DNA from: Cylindrospermum sp. NIES-4074
Lineage (GTDB): Bacteria; Cyanobacteriota; Cyanobacteriia; Cyanobacteriales; Nostocaceae
NCBI GenBank assembly: GCA_003994795.1
Contig: AP018269.1
Span: 124,001-188,000, forward strand
Length of the DNA: 64,000 bases
Reading direction: 5' to 3'
Shown here in pieces: positions 22,638 to 44,795 of this stretch. Position numbers and translations under genes: made by a program. Every line of letters begins with the position of its first letter. Within the stretch, counting starts at the first letter, position 1. The notes below the pieces were generated by a model, which saw nothing but the letters and a program-made list of their open reading frames with translations, had not been told where the DNA came from and did no database searches.

Positions 22638-23606
22638 TTAACCCCAAGAACGATAAAATGAGCTTTCCCTCCAAATCGTCGCTGTACGCTGTTCAATCTC
22701 AGCTAATTGTCTATCACTCAACTGCTCAAAACTACGAGCCACATTAACATTCTCTTCCAACTGCTGCACATCATCAACAGAAATTACACAACAATGCACT
22801 CCAGGTTGAGATAAGCTATAACTCATCGCTTGCTGCATTCCTGTTAAACCACCAGCTTGAAATAACTTCCCGTAAGCAGGAACTTTCATGGCAATTACAC
22901 CTAAATTTTGTTGTTGCGCTAATGGTAAAACCGCAGGAATAAACGGACGCGGATAGTGTTTATCTACCGCATTTATTGGTAACAAAGTTGTGTGGAAAGA
23001 ATAACGACGTATTGCTTCAACTATAAAATCTGGTTCGTGATGTCCCGTAATTCCCACAAATCGCACAAGTTTCTGTTCTTGAGCTTCTTCTAAAGCTTTA
23101 ATTCCACCAGATGAACTAAAAAGGGTTTGGAGGTGTTCTGGTGAAGCAACACTATGCAATTGCCACAAATCAAGATAATCTGTATTGAGACGTTTAAGCG
23201 ATCGCTCCAATTCTCGCCACATCCCATCCCGGTCTCGCTTATAAGTCTTACTGGCTAAAAAAACTGTTGCACGATGAGAAGGTAAGGCTTTACCTAAAAA
23301 ATCCTCATTTGCTCCATAACTAGCGGCTGTGTCAAAATAACGAATGCCAAGTTGTAGTGCTTTTTCGATAATTGCGATCGCATCACTTTCTCGATCTTGT
23401 TTGTCAAGTGGTGTTTTTGTACCAGCACCACCCAACCCCAAGATGGGAACTTTTATCCCTGTGCGTCCTAGCACTCGTTCTGGTATTGTTACCAGTGGTG
23501 TAGAAGTGCTAGAAATATTATTTTGCCAAGTATTAGCTCCCAGAATCCCGCCAGCAACAGCAACACTCGTTAGCAGAAAATTACGCCGTGTCGTTTCTTC
23601 TGTCAT
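22638..23606 (-). CDS. Aldo/keto reductase with Tat signal
   Basis: 322 residues. The N-terminus ETTRRNFLLTSVAVAGGILGAN is a twin-arginine signal (RRxFL), so the enzyme should be folded with its NADPH in the cytoplasm and then exported. The AKR barrel follows with the catalytic set: Asp in RYFDTAASYG, Tyr of ASYG, Lys in LASKTYKRD and His in WQLHSVAS. It reduces aldehydes or ketones, substrate unknown. There are no close neighbours in the same direction. The start at the ATG at 23606 fits the signal. Confidence 0.88.
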   Translation of the reverse strand: MTEETTRRNFLLTSVAVAGGILGANTWQNNISSTSTPLVTIPERVLGRTGIKVPILGLGGAGTKTPLDKQDRESDAIAIIEKALQLGIRYFDTAASYGANEDFLGKALPSHRATVFLASKTYKRDRDGMWRELERSLKRLNTDYLDLWQLHSVASPEHLQTLFSSSGGIKALEEAQEQKLVRFVGITGHHEPDFIVEAIRRYSFHTTLLPINAVDKHYPRPFIPAVLPLAQQQNLGVIAMKVPAYGKLFQAGGLTGMQQAMSYSLSQPGVHCCVISVDDVQQLEENVNVARSFEQLSDRQLAEIEQRTATIWRESSFYRSWG

Positions 23607-23726
23607 AGTACTATTTATTAGCTATGTAGTAAATGTCAATGATTTGTTTAAGTATAATGACTTTGACTGTAAGTGAAAATCTTCCTCCTCTCGAAAGAGC
23701 GATCGCATTTGTGAAAAAATACTAAT

Positions 23727-23756
23727 TGTAGAGACGTGGCATAAAACGCCTCTACA
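23727..23756. repeat. Dispersed palindrome (tgtagagacg family, diverged)
   Basis: tgtagagacgtggc, then ataaaacgcctctaca. Lies between the aldo/keto reductase and aroF genes. Confidence 0.6.
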
Positions 23757-23764
23757 TTCATGAT

Positions 23765-24628
23765 CTAAGCCGCACAAAAAACAGGGGCAGATTCTAAACC
23801 CACCCCTGCTATACTGCGCCCAACTGCTGCTGCTACAGGCTTTAAGCTGTGAACCAAACTCACCATATCTGCTAAAGACAACGCTTGACGTGCATCAGAA
23901 ACAGACTTTTCTGGCTCAGGGTGACACTCTATAATTAACCCATCAGCCCCACAAGCCACAGCCGCCCGCGCCAGAGGTGCCACCAGTTCCCGTTTACCAA
24001 CAGCATGGGAAGGATCTACAATTACGGGTAGGTGCGTGATTTGCTTGAGCGCCGCCACAGCCGCTAAATCCAAAACGTTGCGGGTGTAATTATCGAAACT
24101 GCGAATACCTCTTTCACACAACACCACATGAGGATTTCCGTGACTGAGGATATATTCAGCCGCCATCACGAATTCTTCAATTGTTGCGGCTAAACCACGC
24201 TTGAGCAAAATCGGCTTACCCGCTTGTCCCAAAGCTTTCAGCAAATCGAAGTTTTGCATATTGCGACTACCAATTTGCAGCATATCAGCGTGGGCGGCCA
24301 CAACTGCAATTTGGGAGATTGACATGACTTCGGTGATTACTGGAATATTGTAATGCGATCGCACTTTAGCCAAAATTTCTAATCCTTCCTCACCCATTCC
24401 CTGGAAAGCATAGGGAGATGTACGGGGTTTGTAGACACCACCACGCAAACCCTGTACAGGCGCAGCAGCTAACTTTTGGGCGACTGTCTCCATTTGTTCT
24501 AAGCTTTCCACGGTGCAGGGGCCACCAATAATTACCAGTTCTTTACCACCAAAAGCTACTTTGTTTGACAGTTCCACAACCGTTTGGTGGTTGGTATGGG
24601 ATTGCGCGGCAAGTTTAGCATTAATCAC
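23765..24628 (-). CDS. aroF: 3-deoxy-7-phosphoheptulonate (DAHP) synthase
   Basis: 287 residues. It condenses phosphoenolpyruvate and erythrose-4-phosphate, the first step of the shikimate pathway to Trp, Phe, Tyr and, in this window, chorismate for the salicylate-synthase-like enzyme. [45 protein letters not shown] and [10 protein letters not shown] are the type I beta (KDO8P synthase-like) active-site segments. There is no ACT or chorismate mutase domain. The start is the GTG at 24628, with AAGGAGA 8 bases before it. It is preceded by two successive leader peptides with terminators (24651-24942), which indicates ribosome-mediated attenuation by aromatic amino acid supply. Confidence 0.95.
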
Positions 24629-24650
24629 GGTTCATTCTCCTTAAAATTAA

Positions 24651-24679
24651 AAAAGCCCGGAACCTTGAGAGTTCCGGGC
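24651..24679 (-). terminator. Attenuator 2: intrinsic terminator upstream of aroF
   Basis: On the minus strand gcccggaac, loop tctcaag, gttccgggc, then a T run. It ends 22 bases before the aroF GTG, so it acts on aroF. Its 5' arm (cccggaact, 24670-24678) is also complementary to agttccggg at 24711-24719, the 3' end of leader peptide 2, giving a 9-bp antiterminator. Confidence 0.88.
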
Positions 24680-24707
24680 GCGTTCTGATTCATCGACATG
24701 ACGCTAT

Positions 24708-24770
24708 TTACCCGGAACTGAGGCAGGGCCAAAAGTAAAAGCCATAAAACCAGTTAGTTAAATAGGTCAT
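24708..24770 (-). CDS. Leader peptide 2 of the aroF attenuator
   Basis: A 20-codon frame, too short for usual gene calling. SD ttaaggagaa lies 7 bases before the GTG/ATG pair at 24773/24770. The peptide contains NWFYGFYFW: eight aromatic codons (3 Phe, 3 Tyr, 2 Trp) in 20. The stop TAA at 24708-24710 directly follows agttccggg, one strand of the antiterminator. A ribosome that finishes the peptide covers that strand and lets the terminator form. One that stalls at the Trp/Tyr/Phe codons leaves it free to pair with the terminator's 5' arm. The arrangement is that of classical trp/phe attenuators. Confidence 0.85.
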   Translation of the reverse strand: MTYLTNWFYGFYFWPCLSSG

Positions 24771-24790
24771 CACGATGAAATTCTCCTTAA

Positions 24791-24822
24791 AAAACAAAAA
24801 CCGCAGAGTTCGCTCTGCGGTT
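24791..24822 (-). terminator. Attenuator 1: upstream intrinsic terminator
   Basis: On the minus strand aaccgcagag, loop cgaa, ctctgcggtt, then tttgtttttt: a 10-bp stem with a T tract. It ends about 20 bases before leader peptide 2. The first four bases of its 5' arm are part of cccggtgaacc (24819-24829), which is complementary over 11 bases to ggttcaccggg (24858-24868) in the 3' end of leader peptide 1. Confidence 0.85.
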
Positions 24823-24852
24823 CACCGGGCAGTTCCCATTAGGAAACTCAAT

Positions 24853-24942
24853 TCACCCCCGGTGAACCACCCTAAACCAAAAATAAAAGTAGGAGTTGCT
24901 GTTGAACATCTGTGCGGCGCTGTGTTTGCAAGTTTTATGCAT
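24853..24942 (-). CDS. Leader peptide 1 of the aroF attenuator
   Basis: A 29-codon frame from the ATG at 24942, or 18 codons from the ATG at 24909; no strong SD supports either. It contains six aromatic codons in a row, YFYFWF (24874-24891), then RVVHRG and TGA (24853-24855). The last codons (ggttcaccggg) form one strand of the upstream antiterminator. So stalling on the aromatic run would free it, while completion would cover it, as in leader 2. The run of six aromatic codons and the pairing argue strongly against chance. Confidence 0.75.
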   Translation of the reverse strand: MHKTCKHSAAQMFNSNSYFYFWFRVVHRG

Positions 24943-24956
24943 ACCTTTATCCAGTC

Positions 24957-24985
24957 ACGTTAACAGAAAGATTTGGCGGTGTCAA
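24957..24985 (-). promoter_or_regulatory. Candidate promoter for the aroF leader
   Basis: On the minus strand TTGACA (24980-24985), 17 bases, TAACGT (24957-24962). The predicted transcription start is near 24950, only a few bases before the first leader ATG at 24942 and about 40 before the second at 24909. The -35 is perfect and the -10 weak. Confidence 0.5.
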
Positions 24986-25378
24986 GACCCCCACAACATG
25001 AAAAAAAACGATAGACTCATTACAATTGGAGAAAATCAAGACTTATTGCTTGTTTGCGTAGATTTAAGAAAACAGTTGGTAGTCAGATGGCGTCTAAGTT
25101 ATAGATATTCACACATATTGTTAGATCCTTGAGAACGGGAATGATGATAGTTGAATAAGAACGTAATTAGTGCTGGATTTAATCATAGTCACACTTTTGT
25201 AGCTTACCAAATTTTAAACCTGGTGTTTTACCAATTATCTATCCATCAGTCGCTTAACTTTATGCTGACGACTGATGCTGTTATTCTTTCTAGATAAATG
25301 GTTAAAAATCTCACAATTCATAATTAATATCTAAATCATTATTAACCCAAACAAATTTGTAGAAGTAGCAGTTTTGTT
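24986..25378. other. Intergenic region between divergent aroF leader and a membrane protein gene
   Basis: About 390 AT-rich bases. Short frames exist on the plus strand but have no SD or coding look. cagtcgcttaac/ctgacgactg around 25246-25275 form a weak hairpin. No repeat family recognised. Confidence 0.4.
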
Positions 25379-25870
25379 ATGCCAAGTTCCAAAATATTAG
25401 CCACAACTTTCGACCTTCATGGAGTTTATCCTTGTCCAGTTTGTCGCTTTGGCAAAATTTCCCATATGCCATTGATGGAGACAATGTATTGTAACTTTTG
25501 CCAAGAGATTTTTACTATCAATGTAGAACAACAGCAAATCAAAATGCCCTCTAGACAACCTCCCCTAACTTGGCGTTGGAATGGCTTTAATTGGACAGAA
25601 GCTCAATTAGAAGGTGTAGAATTGGGTTGGGGTTATCTGCTAGCAGCTGTTGCTTTTGTATTTTTTCCCACTATTTTAATTGGTATAGGAGCTTACTACT
25701 ATCCACCAGATGCCCATATTCCCCTTTCTTGGATACCATATATTTGGACAGTGCTCACCTTTTTATTACATTTAGCAATTATTCTGTGGATTTATATTGA
25801 AATTTATCAAATTCCAGTGGCAACATATTTGAGAGCTATGGTTAGGTGGAGAAGTGGCGCTAATAATTAA
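25379..25870 (+). CDS. Membrane protein with N-terminal zinc ribbon, unknown function
   Basis: 163 residues. CPVCRFGKI ... YCNFCQ (residues about 19-40) gives two CxxC pairs for zinc. Then LLAAVAFVFFPTILIGIGAYY and YIWTVLTFLLHLAIILWIYI are two membrane helices. A basic tail (RAMVRWRSGANN) should be cytoplasmic. There is no enzyme motif and no operon partner. I do not recognise a characterised family; it reads as a typical cyanobacterial conserved membrane protein. Confidence 0.75.
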   Translation: MPSSKILATTFDLHGVYPCPVCRFGKISHMPLMETMYCNFCQEIFTINVEQQQIKMPSRQPPLTWRWNGFNWTEAQLEGVELGWGYLLAAVAFVFFPTILIGIGAYYYPPDAHIPLSWIPYIWTVLTFLLHLAIILWIYIEIYQIPVATYLRAMVRWRSGANN

Positions 25871-26364
25871 TCACAAAGCCGCACCAGTCCAGATTTTACA
25901 AGCAGGAAGGCAGGGGGAGCAGGGGGAGCAGGGGGAGTTATTGTCCCAATTACCCATTACCCATTACCGAAAAGTTGGTGCTGATTCACACAAAGGTTAT
26001 TGATGGACAGAGTTTGCCGCTCTGGTTTGGTAGGATATTTAAGCAATCGCCAATTTAAGAAAAGCACTTGTTACAATTTTTAGACAGCGTTAGCAGCCTA
26101 AAGCAATACAATATAGCTTTGCAGGTAGCTGACTTGATGCCGTTTACGCAGCAAATTGTATAAGATTAGACTATAATTTAGTAAGAGCTACTTTAACTTA
26201 AGTATGATCTTCAACCCGTCACCTGCCAAATTTAGGGTAAATTGTCGGGAATAAAGATTAAATCTTAGCTAAATTTGCCCAATATAAAAGAGATGATATC
26301 AATAATTATGCCCATAGATGGCTGCATCACTCATAATTAATTTGATTGACTATTAAAACTTTCT
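25871..26364. other. Intergenic region with short tandem repeats
   Basis: 494 bases. Three copies of cagggggag in tandem (25911-25937) and three of attaccc/cattacc (25948-25968), both of the short-repeat type common in Nostocales. The rest is AT-rich with no gene seen. Confidence 0.5.
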
Positions 26365-27021
26365 ATGAGCGATCTGGAGCGGTACTATAGAGTTTTGGAA
26401 TTAGAGCCTGGAGCAACACTTGAAGAGGTGAACCAGGCTTACAAAGATTTGGTTTTTGTTTGGCATCCTGATCGCCTTCCTCAAGACAATCCCCGCTTAC
26501 AGCAAAAAGCCCAAGCAAAGCTCAAAGCAATTAACGAAGCTCGCGAAAAATTGCGCTCTTTAAAAGTTAATCATCAACCCAAAACTTATTCAACGCCTTA
26601 CTCACCACCTGAACCCAAACAACCATCACCAACAAACAATCCGCCACCAAAGCAAAACCCAGACTTGAGCGGTAAAGATTTCAGTCGGGCAAATTTGAGC
26701 AATAAAGACTTATCTGGCAGAAACCTGAGTTATGCCAACTTAAGTGGTGCAAATCTCAGCGATACCTTCATGCACAAAGTTAATCTCAGAGGTGCGGATT
26801 TATCAGAAGCAAATTTATTTAGAGCCAACCTACTTTTAGCCGACATGAGAGAAGCGAATTTACGCTCTGCTAATTTGATTGGTGCGGATCTCAGTGGTGC
26901 TGACTTACGGGGAGCCGATTTAAGGGGAGCAAGGATTCGCTCAGGCGAGCGTCTATTGGTGAAACTGATTGGTGCTAATTTGGCTGGAGCAATTATGCCA
27001 GATGGCGAAATTCATCCGTAA
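26365..27021 (+). CDS. J-domain and pentapeptide-repeat protein
   Basis: 218 residues. Residues 1-65 are a DnaJ domain (YYRVLELEPGATLEEVNQAYKDLVFVWHPDRLP) with the HPD motif needed to stimulate Hsp70 ATPase. A Pro-rich linker (about 75-100) follows, then about 15 pentapeptide repeats A(D/N)LSG/A(D/N)LRG forming a right-handed quadrilateral beta helix. The fusion is typical of cyanobacteria. It probably brings a DnaK to a protein bound by the helix; the target is unknown. Confidence 0.9.
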   Translation: MSDLERYYRVLELEPGATLEEVNQAYKDLVFVWHPDRLPQDNPRLQQKAQAKLKAINEAREKLRSLKVNHQPKTYSTPYSPPEPKQPSPTNNPPPKQNPDLSGKDFSRANLSNKDLSGRNLSYANLSGANLSDTFMHKVNLRGADLSEANLFRANLLLADMREANLRSANLIGADLSGADLRGADLRGARIRSGERLLVKLIGANLAGAIMPDGEIHP

Positions 27022-43472: not shown

Positions 43473-44795
43473 ATGGTAGCGGAACTCAAAACTCAGATTA
43501 AGTATAATGAAGCATTTGTAACAGGGAAAAAAGAGCCAATTATTGTCTTAAATAACTTGCTACAAGCTGGGATTTTTTCTAACTATGTCATGTATGAAGG
43601 CAATGATGAGGTTCGCATTGCTGGTAATGAGCTTGTGAAGGTGTCAGTAACCCAAGATTCTGTATTAATTAATGGTTTAGGAAAATCCTACTCTGAACCA
43701 GTGAGTGATCCCTTGAAACAGGTAGAGGCTTTGTTCAATTCTTTGAATATTGAAAATTGGACAGCTTATGGCTATGTTGCATTTGATATAGCTCGATTCT
43801 ACTCGGCATATTCTCAAGCAATTTCCCAAGAACTGCTCTATTTTTTGATTCCTGAGACTGAACTGCGCTTTACAGAGACAGGGATACATATCAAGACTAC
43901 TAAGTCATTAGAACAGGTTCAAGAACAATTATTGCTTGAGAATGAATTACCAAATTATGAGTTATCTTCGGTAGTAGTTGATTTTCATGATCGCCAAAAT
44001 TACAAAAACCGTGTTGAGACTCTAGTTACAGCAATTAAACAAGGAAATTTGCAAAAAGCAATTATTTCTCGTTCTGTTAAAGCAACAGGTAATTTAGATA
44101 TTTTAGGAACTTATGTGGTCGGATCAAAAACAAACAACTCTGCACGTTCCTATTGTCTCAATTTAGAAGATATCCGCGCTGTTGGTTTTAGTCCGGAAAT
44201 TCTCATGCAGGTAAACGAGGACGGTTTTGTAGTGACTAATCCACTAGCAGGAACTCGACCCCGTGGTGCAGACTTAGAGGAAGACACACGATTAAGCGGT
44301 GAACTATTTACAGATGCGAAAGAAGTGAAAGAACACGCACTGTCAGCTTGGTTAGCACAAAATGAGATTACCTCACTTTGTTCACCAGAAACCGTGCGAG
44401 TTTTTGATTTCATGGAAGTCAAAAAGTATAGATGTGTACAGCACTTATCATCACGAGTAGGTGGCAAACTTCTACCTGGAAACAGCTTGTGGGATGCGTT
44501 AAAAGTGTTATTCCCAGGAATTACCGTTTCTGGGATTGATAAAGCACAAGCCTTAGCATGGATTGACCGTTTAGAAGATGAGCCAAGAGGTATTTATGCT
44601 GGTGGTATTGGTTGGGTAGATAGTAATGGTGCGGCGGATATTGCGATCGCTATTCGCTCGGTTTACCAATACGGTAATAAAATTTACCTAAATGCTGGTG
44701 CGGGAATTGTAGCAGAATCTGTTCCTGAAAGCGAGTATATCGAGTCAGTTAATAAGATGAATACTATCCTGAATAACTTAGTTTTGGAGGCTTGA
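43473..44795 (+). CDS. Salicylate synthase-like chorismate-utilising enzyme
   Basis: 440 residues of the chorismate-binding family. LQKAIISRSVKA has a Lys where isochorismate and salicylate synthases have their general base (anthranilate synthases lack it). NPLAGTRPRG, VKEHALSAW, CVQHLSSRVGGKL and VSGIDKAQALAWIDRLEDEPRGIYAGGIGWV follow MbtI/Irp9-type salicylate synthases, as does the ending LNAGAGIVAESVPESEYIESVNKM. It should turn chorismate through isochorismate into salicylate plus pyruvate. In the same direction as the ligase-reductase gene, but a MITE separates them. Isochorismate synthase is the main alternative. Confidence 0.85.
   Translation: MVAELKTQIKYNEAFVTGKKEPIIVLNNLLQAGIFSNYVMYEGNDEVRIAGNELVKVSVTQDSVLINGLGKSYSEPVSDPLKQVEALFNSLNIENWTAYGYVAFDIARFYSAYSQAISQELLYFLIPETELRFTETGIHIKTTKSLEQVQEQLLLENELPNYELSSVVVDFHDRQNYKNRVETLVTAIKQGNLQKAIISRSVKATGNLDILGTYVVGSKTNNSARSYCLNLEDIRAVGFSPEILMQVNEDGFVVTNPLAGTRPRGADLEEDTRLSGELFTDAKEVKEHALSAWLAQNEITSLCSPETVRVFDFMEVKKYRCVQHLSSRVGGKLLPGNSLWDALKVLFPGITVSGIDKAQALAWIDRLEDEPRGIYAGGIGWVDSNGAADIAIAIRSVYQYGNKIYLNAGAGIVAESVPESEYIESVNKMNTILNNLVLEA

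Follow-up and report, generated by a model that had tools for sequence, protein, structure and literature searches.

Two putative ribosome-mediated attenuators in series upstream of aroF in cyanobacteria

In the window, that is, the whole stretch of 64,000 nt from Cylindrospermum sp. NIES-4074 that was analysed here, the gene aroF is preceded on the minus strand by two short frames rich in aromatic codons, each ending in one arm of an antiterminator and followed by an intrinsic terminator. The finding itself is real and its interpretation as attenuation is very likely; judged on the sequence, we put the probability that two ribosome-mediated transcription attenuators in series control aroF at about 0.85. 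Reading towards the gene, the order is promoter-like site, leader 1, antiterminator 1, terminator 1, AAGGAG, leader 2, antiterminator 2 and terminator 2, with the following coordinates and supporting evidence:

24980–24985, minus strand: promoter-like −35 element TTGACA (pattern shared by 97 of 98 loci)
24957–24965, minus strand: extended −10 element TGTTAACGT, with TG at 24965–24964 and TAACGT at 24962–24957 (conserved pattern)
24853–24909, minus strand: leader 1 open reading frame MFNSNSYFYFWFRVVHRG and stop codon, with ATG at 24909, the YFYFWF codons at 24891–24874 and TGA at 24855–24853 (sequence, conservation)
24858–24868, minus strand: 5′ arm of antiterminator 1, GGTTCACCGGG, the last codons of leader 1 (pairing, covariation)
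24831–24848, minus strand: small hairpin AGTTTCC TAAT GGGAACT within antiterminator 1 (alignment)
24819–24829, minus strand: 3′ arm of antiterminator 1, CCCGGTGAACC (exact complement of GGTTCACCGGG at 24868–24858)
24789–24822, minus strand: terminator 1, a 10-bp stem-loop (24822–24799) plus T-rich tract (terminator scan, alignment)
24783–24788, minus strand: AAGGAG, possible ribosome-binding site of leader 2 (sequence)
24708–24770, minus strand: leader 2 open reading frame MTYLTNWFYGFYFWPCLSSG and stop codon, with the aromatic stretch WFYGFYFW (sequence, conservation)
24711–24719, minus strand: 5′ arm of antiterminator 2, AGTTCCGGG, the last codons of leader 2 (pairing)
24670–24678, minus strand: 3′ arm of antiterminator 2, CCCGGAACT, inside the 5′ arm of terminator 2 (pairing)
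24649–24679, minus strand: terminator 2, a stem-loop (24679–24655) plus TTTTTT (terminator scan, alignment)
23765–24628, minus strand: aroF, DAHP synthase with catalytic domain only, 287 aa, GTG start (TIGR01361, PF00793)

Among all six reading frames of the 64-kb window there is a single run of six F/Y/W codons, where 40 Markov simulations predict 0.18. When the upstream 60 nt were subjected to 20,000 mononucleotide shuffles, no complement of at least 10 nt to the arm region arose, the longest being 9 nt in four shuffles. A consensus terminator scan of positions 24200–25400 returned exactly these two terminators, each on the minus strand. As chance alone would give 1.0, the terminators by themselves are unremarkable, and it is their conservation that establishes both as real. 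By eye, no clear Shine-Dalgarno sequence was seen before leader 1. The first-pass annotation had placed leader 1, its aromatic run, an 11-base complement and terminator 1 here, and every one of these coordinates was borne out when read on the minus strand. It had also claimed a second complete switch before aroF, and leader 2, both antiterminator arms and terminator 2 are indeed present. The overlap that it described between the antiterminator and terminator 1 exists but is confined to the 4 nt AACC (24822–24819), so that pairing of the arms would open the base of terminator 1 alone.

From this arrangement we infer the following sequence of events, from the start of the transcript through translation, stalling and termination to the combined logic of both switches. 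RNA polymerase would start about 40 nt before leader 1, with a predicted transcript start at around 24950, and a following ribosome would translate leader 1. If charged tRNA-Phe, -Tyr or -Trp were short, the ribosome would stall in the aromatic run; a ribosome at the last Trp codon would end just before the 5′ arm, the arms could pair and the base of terminator 1 would be taken away. If all three charged tRNAs were plentiful, the ribosome would reach the stop codon and cover the 5′ arm, and terminator 1 would form. A second ribosome would repeat the test at leader 2 and terminator 2. A shortage of a single aromatic amino acid would be enough to open both gates (OR within a leader, AND in series), and serial terminators would multiply the range of control. 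The result would be transcriptional end-product control of a DAHP synthase isozyme that is devoid of the ferredoxin-like regulatory domain, an enzyme probably made only when Phe, Tyr or Trp runs short.

The pattern TTGACN-(16–18)-TA precedes leader 1 in 97 of 98 loci, all but L077, and occurs in 4% of shuffles of the same regions, the pattern having been selected after inspection of the loci. The spacer measures 17 nt in 83 and a TG extension is found in 96 of the 98 loci; in the window the site reads TTGACA-17-TAACGT with TG before the −10 (24985–24957). The distance from the −10 to the ATG of leader 1 is 36–58 nt in 83 of the 94 loci in which both were found. This conserved promoter-like site upstream of leader 1 argues against transcripts that start only after leader 1.

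An AroF scan of GTDB species genomes confirmed 543 relatives, of which the closest 80 were analysed; judged by name, their loci belong mostly to Nostocales and include Coleofasciculus, Kastovskya, Microseira and Trichocoleus. The culture-collection strains Fischerella thermalis PCC 7521 (L070) and Calothrix brevissima NIES-22 (L036) are two that have the locus. At least 400 nt of upstream sequence was available for 77 of the 80 (L012, L019 and L032 were too short), and both leaders are found in all 77 of these named loci: regular expressions recovered each leader in 76 loci, and the two that they missed, leader 1 of L079 and leader 2 of L002, were recognized by eye. For the detailed counts, the window, the 77 named loci and 21 further ones were combined into 99 loci, which are partly redundant (e.g. 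L153 and L080). Element 1 is present in 98 of these 99, the exception being L158, in which no leader 1 was seen; the anchors GTTC, ACCGCAG and CTGCGG used for element 1 are invariant by construction and excluded L158 only. Element 2 was detected in 96 of the 99 loci and recognized by eye in L020 and L074, with none in L156; automatic detection missed these two and chose a wrong frame for L174. L158 and L174 were excluded from the codon and folding counts of element 2, and L173 additionally from its tree count. The two single-switch lineages, L156 with leader 1 only and L158 with leader 2 only, represent natural single-switch controls.

In addition, covariance models of both elements, built from 42 sequences each, were run on 386 genomes of the phylum with strict filters, so that absences are not certain; leader 1 was matched in 38/386 and leader 2 in 36/386 genomes, with one match per genome. 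The same 386 genomes contain 39 AroF proteins at E up to 1e-100, 38 at 71% identity or more and one, in genome G343, at 59%. Among the 38, leader 1 accompanies 37 (not G143), leader 2 likewise 37 (not G116) and both accompany 36, counting the leader 2 of G170, which the model missed and which was found by eye. The sole model match without a close AroF lies in G030, a genome of the window's own genus, at a decayed aroF. Since the model matches track close AroF, including the G030 remnant, element and gene come and go together. The G030 locus (L171, G030:C48) retains an aroF remnant in which the middle of terminator 1 runs into aroF codons, and several neighbouring genes are as in the window. 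In a further locus (L172, G382:C1:3949000-3958500), an interval of about 5.7 kb interrupts aroF, both leaders lie upstream and an integrase-like gene adjoins one junction; the interval may be an integrated or programmed-excision element.

At codon positions −8 to −4 before the arm of leader 1, Phe, Tyr or Trp occupies 483 of 490 cells (the exceptions are six Leu and one Ser), and positions beyond these are far more variable. Substitutions of aromatic codons nearly always yield another aromatic codon: Phe and Tyr exchange, and the run shifts by one codon in L166 and L168 and gains one in L157. What is kept is therefore an aromatic composition and not a fixed peptide. The spacing from the last Trp codon to the antiterminator arm, which refines the earlier description, is nearly constant, with 8 nt in 95 of 98 loci, 11 nt in two and 2 nt in L079, which has a second Trp. 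According to the available part of one source, a ribosome covers up to 12 nt beyond a stop codon (PMC4833913). With such a footprint, the arm would lie just beyond a ribosome waiting at the last Trp codon and underneath one at the stop codon; with 8 nt between this Trp codon and the arm in 95 of 98 loci and the usual stop after the arm, the register is, as far as geometry goes, that of an attenuator. The stop codon itself moves in L003, L154, L161 and L166 while the arm is kept. All 31 diverse sequences have GTGA directly 3′ of the 5′ arm (columns 29–32 of the element 1 alignment); these include L154, L161 and L166, whose frames end at an earlier stop and do not need it for that purpose. In L174 (G174:C1:729850-730650), the run of leader 2 is NFYFWFFYWF and the frame has no stop before the terminator, through which it reads.

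Codon choice within the aromatic stretches of both leaders is one-sided for Phe, with TTT at 522 of 540 codons, compared with 104/394 Phe codons in aroF and 1929/2857 in open frames of at least 150 aa in the named loci; a distant set gives 166/179 in leader stretches vs 309/528 in open frames of the distant loci, all these counts being inflated by kinship of the sequences. Tyr codons in the leaders are unbiased (226 TAT, 203 TAC). The TTT bias fits selection on the codons themselves, and equally a requirement for RNA that is rich in U and unpaired. These data bear on a different explanation, in which an aromatic nascent peptide in the exit tunnel would stall the ribosome on a free metabolite, as TnaC does in response to tryptophan, and the codons would matter through the residues they encode. 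The residues are bulky and hydrophobic and their order is quite conserved (SYFYFWF; WFYGFYFWPR), as such arrest would have it, but lineages differ in the placing of Phe, Tyr and Trp, with runs that are shifted or lengthened (YYYYWF, YYFFFWF, QFYFWFF, YYFYFWWF), Phe is almost only TTT although TTC encodes the same peptide, and the C-terminal residues track the RNA pairing and not the peptide. We therefore regard arrest by the nascent peptide as very unlikely.

The pairing of antiterminator 1 was followed in the 13 pairs of its outer stem across the 31 diverse sequences, in which standard pairs make up 90.8% of cells. Double changes occupy 28 cells, against 9.1 in shuffles (sd 2.4; 0/500 as high) and 2 to 8 in slid structures, and the covariation score is 0.271, against 0.149 in shuffles and 0.043 to 0.082 in slid structures. 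Two of the five measures do not rise above shuffles, namely the number of pairs with double changes (5 vs 4.3; 220/500 as high) and of further pair types (18 vs 15.6; 55/500 as high). Parsimony on the AroF protein tree of 93 loci, with partners slid by 1 to 3 and 100 permutations as controls, gave 15 compensatory changes for antiterminator 1, compared with 0–3 for slid partners and a mean of 2.0 (maximum 6) in permutations, alongside 16 one-sided changes under which pairing is preserved and 30 changes that disrupt it, 14 of the latter at the three innermost pairs. The excess of double changes and the compensatory changes on the tree thus mark antiterminator 1 as a pairing with covariation. Its inner hairpin is paired in 81.8% of cells, with double changes in three of seven pairs and the outermost pair unpaired in 39/41. 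Terminator 1 is paired in 100% of cells of the 31 sequences, which were found by anchors inside the stem, and is near-invariant: seven of eight pairs never vary and the remaining one is A-U or G-C.

Element 2 is more uniform than element 1. For antiterminator 2, whose arms were chosen by best pairing, the tree gave 12 compensatory changes vs 0–9 for slid partners and 47 that break pairs; its covariation score is 0.059, with one slid control higher at 0.073, and mismatches occur in L050, L056 and L002. The pairing as such is retained, with covariation that does not clearly exceed that of slid controls. Terminator 2 is paired in 97.6% of cells, with 11 double-change cells that all fall at one pair. 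The proposal of an attenuation switch with Phe, Tyr and Trp codons is thereby strengthened by conservation and, for switch 1, covariation; the comparison suggested for the region upstream of aroF came out positive for this switch, in both the conserved aromatic run and the covarying 11-bp antiterminator. As to tandem attenuation, the presence of the second switch holds (76 of 77 named loci by regular expression, the last by eye), but its covariation is weaker.

Folding predictions refine this picture. Folded by itself, antiterminator 1 exceeds terminator 1 in stability in 98/98 loci (mean −25.5 vs −15.1 kcal/mol), and when the 5′ arm is masked the terminator folds in 98/98 loci for element 1 and 94/94 for element 2. 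With the 5′ arm free, the predicted fold of the window retains a hairpin of 6 bp that ends 2 nt short of the T tract; across the 98 loci, none loses terminator 1 wholly and 12 keep at least six of eight arm pairs. Switch 1 may thus be leaky, because the overlap is 4 nt and a shortened hairpin stays in the predicted fold; the trp leader of Bacillus subtilis likewise has a 4-nt overlap. The arms of antiterminator 2 coincide with terminator 2, and antiterminator 2 alone is the more stable in 79/94 loci. With the arm free, the static fold retains the terminator in 67/94 loci; as it mostly favours the terminator, the model for switch 2 needs co-transcriptional folding, the order of which should favour antiterminator 2. 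A conserved protector partner that would hide arm 1 when leader 1 is not translated was not seen on inspection, which was not systematic, and before its partner is made the arm is paired with a median probability of 0.56 (above 0.5 in 74/98 loci); in view of both, the predicted readthrough without translation is soft.

These doubts, the small overlap for switch 1 and the static folding and weak covariation for switch 2, speak for a single working switch, with the other a relic or a constitutive partial terminator, as does the existence of L156 and L158 with one leader each. We nevertheless consider this unlikely, as both switches are kept in 36/38 orthologs of the phylum sample and both aromatic runs are kept across several families, and we favour two attenuators in series. 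Translational or RNA-stability control, or a protein-binding or small-molecule riboswitch with incidental open reading frames, would account for the conserved inner hairpin of element 1 and loop of element 2, which a minimal attenuator does not need. Such control appears very unlikely, given that terminator 1 and its T-rich tract are found together in 98/99 loci and terminator 2 in 96/99, plus L020 and L074 by eye, that the codon content fits the pathway products, and that no Rfam 15 covariance model, leader families included, matches positions 23000–27000 of the window at E up to 1. For lack of such a match, a known RNA family was rejected as an identification.

The product of the attenuated aroF scores above the TIGR01361 cut-off and, in the domain search, contains PF00793 and no PF18152. 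The ferredoxin-like domain PF18152 is present in both DAHP synthase paralogs found in the same genome. In other DAHP synthases, feedback inhibition acts through this domain, and RNA-level control seems to serve the isozyme that lacks it. Elsewhere in this genome, no terminator scoring at least 8 was found in 16 regions of 450 nt before the first possible start of amino-acid genes (two DAHP synthase paralogs, four trpE-like, one pheA-like, three leuA-like, one hisG and five ilvB-like frames; the leuA-like matches L190, L191 and L193 were left out), a scan in which an overlong open frame could hide a leader inside and weak terminators could escape. A near-identical scan recovers both terminators before the window's aroF. 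Leader-like open reading frames before L082, L187, L194 and L195 are accompanied by no terminator in the 16-region scan.

The AroF at 59% identity belongs to G343, a genome of the same phylum but not of the same class as the window's genome; its order is one that we take to be a member of a non-photosynthetic sister class. Among 18 genomes of this order, nine contain AroF matches, 14 in all. The best matches are preceded by one aromatic leader and one terminator in eight of nine (L200, L201 and L203–L208, not L202), for example with the leaders MMKRFYYFSFYPNALRC and NYFYYFFYPIEGFKRH, and the terminators before the gene are mostly of the AACCGC...GCGGTT type. The arm chosen by script pairs better than nearly all shuffles in L200, L203, L206, L207 and L208, and does not in L201, L204 and L205. 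Of the further AroF copies, L209 has a terminator and a Trp-rich short open reading frame MFYEMSQTPVISRKSPQWTWWRLQNKRLQDWFLR, L210 has neither, and L211–L213 have no leader or terminator but contain PF18152. In L209 (G388:C125, second AroF copy), bases ~1250–1430 hold the frame QWTWWRLQNKRLQDWFLR with its stop codon and the terminator ACCGCAGG...CCTGCGGT before a catalytic-domain-only AroF; perhaps this is a Trp-only attenuator for one isozyme.

Eleven of the 14 AroF proteins of this order are without PF18152. Taken together with the window's genome, leader and terminator accompany 10 of 12 genes without PF18152 and none of five with it, an association of 0.003 by a hypergeometric sum made by hand, which assumes independent genes, which they are not. 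The attenuator is either older than the split of the classes or has moved with the gene. Because the terminator type is common to both classes, the older of the two would be switch 1, with switch 2 a later addition. The widest reading would be an attenuator in two stages that senses whether the tRNAs for Phe, Tyr and Trp are charged, has one stage that predates the split of photosynthetic cyanobacteria from another class, stands in for allosteric control of a catalytic-domain-only DAHP synthase and implies transcription-translation coupling on cyanobacterial leader RNAs; we give it an even chance.

The trp, phe and his leader peptides of Escherichia coli represent the classical attenuators. 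As in these, a frame with end-product codons, an antiterminator and an intrinsic terminator precede a biosynthetic gene (also outlined in the accessible part of PMC3641672), and the run of end-product codons and the intrinsic terminator, both by sequence and fold, qualify the leaders as putative ribosome-mediated attenuators. Unlike in E. coli, two such elements stand in series, each leader has codons for all three aromatic amino acids, the system is cyanobacterial, and neither a conserved protector hairpin nor an Rfam match was found. A DAHP synthase gene aroF behind an aromatic leader peptide is also described for Corynebacterium glutamicum, in which aroR-aroF has a Phe-Tyr-Phe leader peptide (Neshat 2014, as cited in the available portions of PMC11802643 and PMC4046766); that system has, in these portions, one leader peptide, compared with two here, and responds to Phe limitation but not to Tyr (PMC11802643). 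Likewise, uORFC-13-1 is an upstream frame with at least one Phe residue before aroF, listed in the accessible text for Acholeplasma and environmental sequences only (PMC8632094); by its description, with which alone it was compared, it shares with our loci a frame with Phe codon(s) and a terminator. For Shewanella, the part of PMC2659441 at hand lists, following work in E. coli, an attenuator of aroF that senses Tyr-tRNA.

Two leader frames in one leader RNA are also found in Salmonella mgtCBR, where, in the excerpt available, they act independently on different signals (ATP and proline) and have no intrinsic terminators (PMC3641672). Here, both leaders contain Phe, Tyr and Trp codons and an intrinsic terminator follows each; a tandem attenuator of the mgtCBR type was rejected on account of these same three amino acids and the terminators. 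The accessible part of a 2016 paper states that there are no reliable data on attenuation in cyanobacteria (PMC4833913), and no cyanobacterial case was recognized among the openly accessible papers listed by our searches, subscription papers being outside this scope. Very likely, the element works like a classical attenuator; what appears new is the same three-amino-acid sensor twice in tandem, the phylum, and the age or mobility. A leader-peptide attenuator this strongly conserved would make coupling in cyanobacteria directly testable, link a missing regulatory domain with RNA-level control and provide a handle for engineering aromatic production in cyanobacteria, and its natural tandem design poses the question why there are two sensors of the same kind.

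Two further genes were noted. In the window itself, positions 43902–44774 on the plus strand (L186) hold a trpE/pabB-like gene for anthranilate or aminodeoxychorismate synthase component I. At G042:C1:3292649-3293473, the AroF search reported an aroF with one in-frame TGA.
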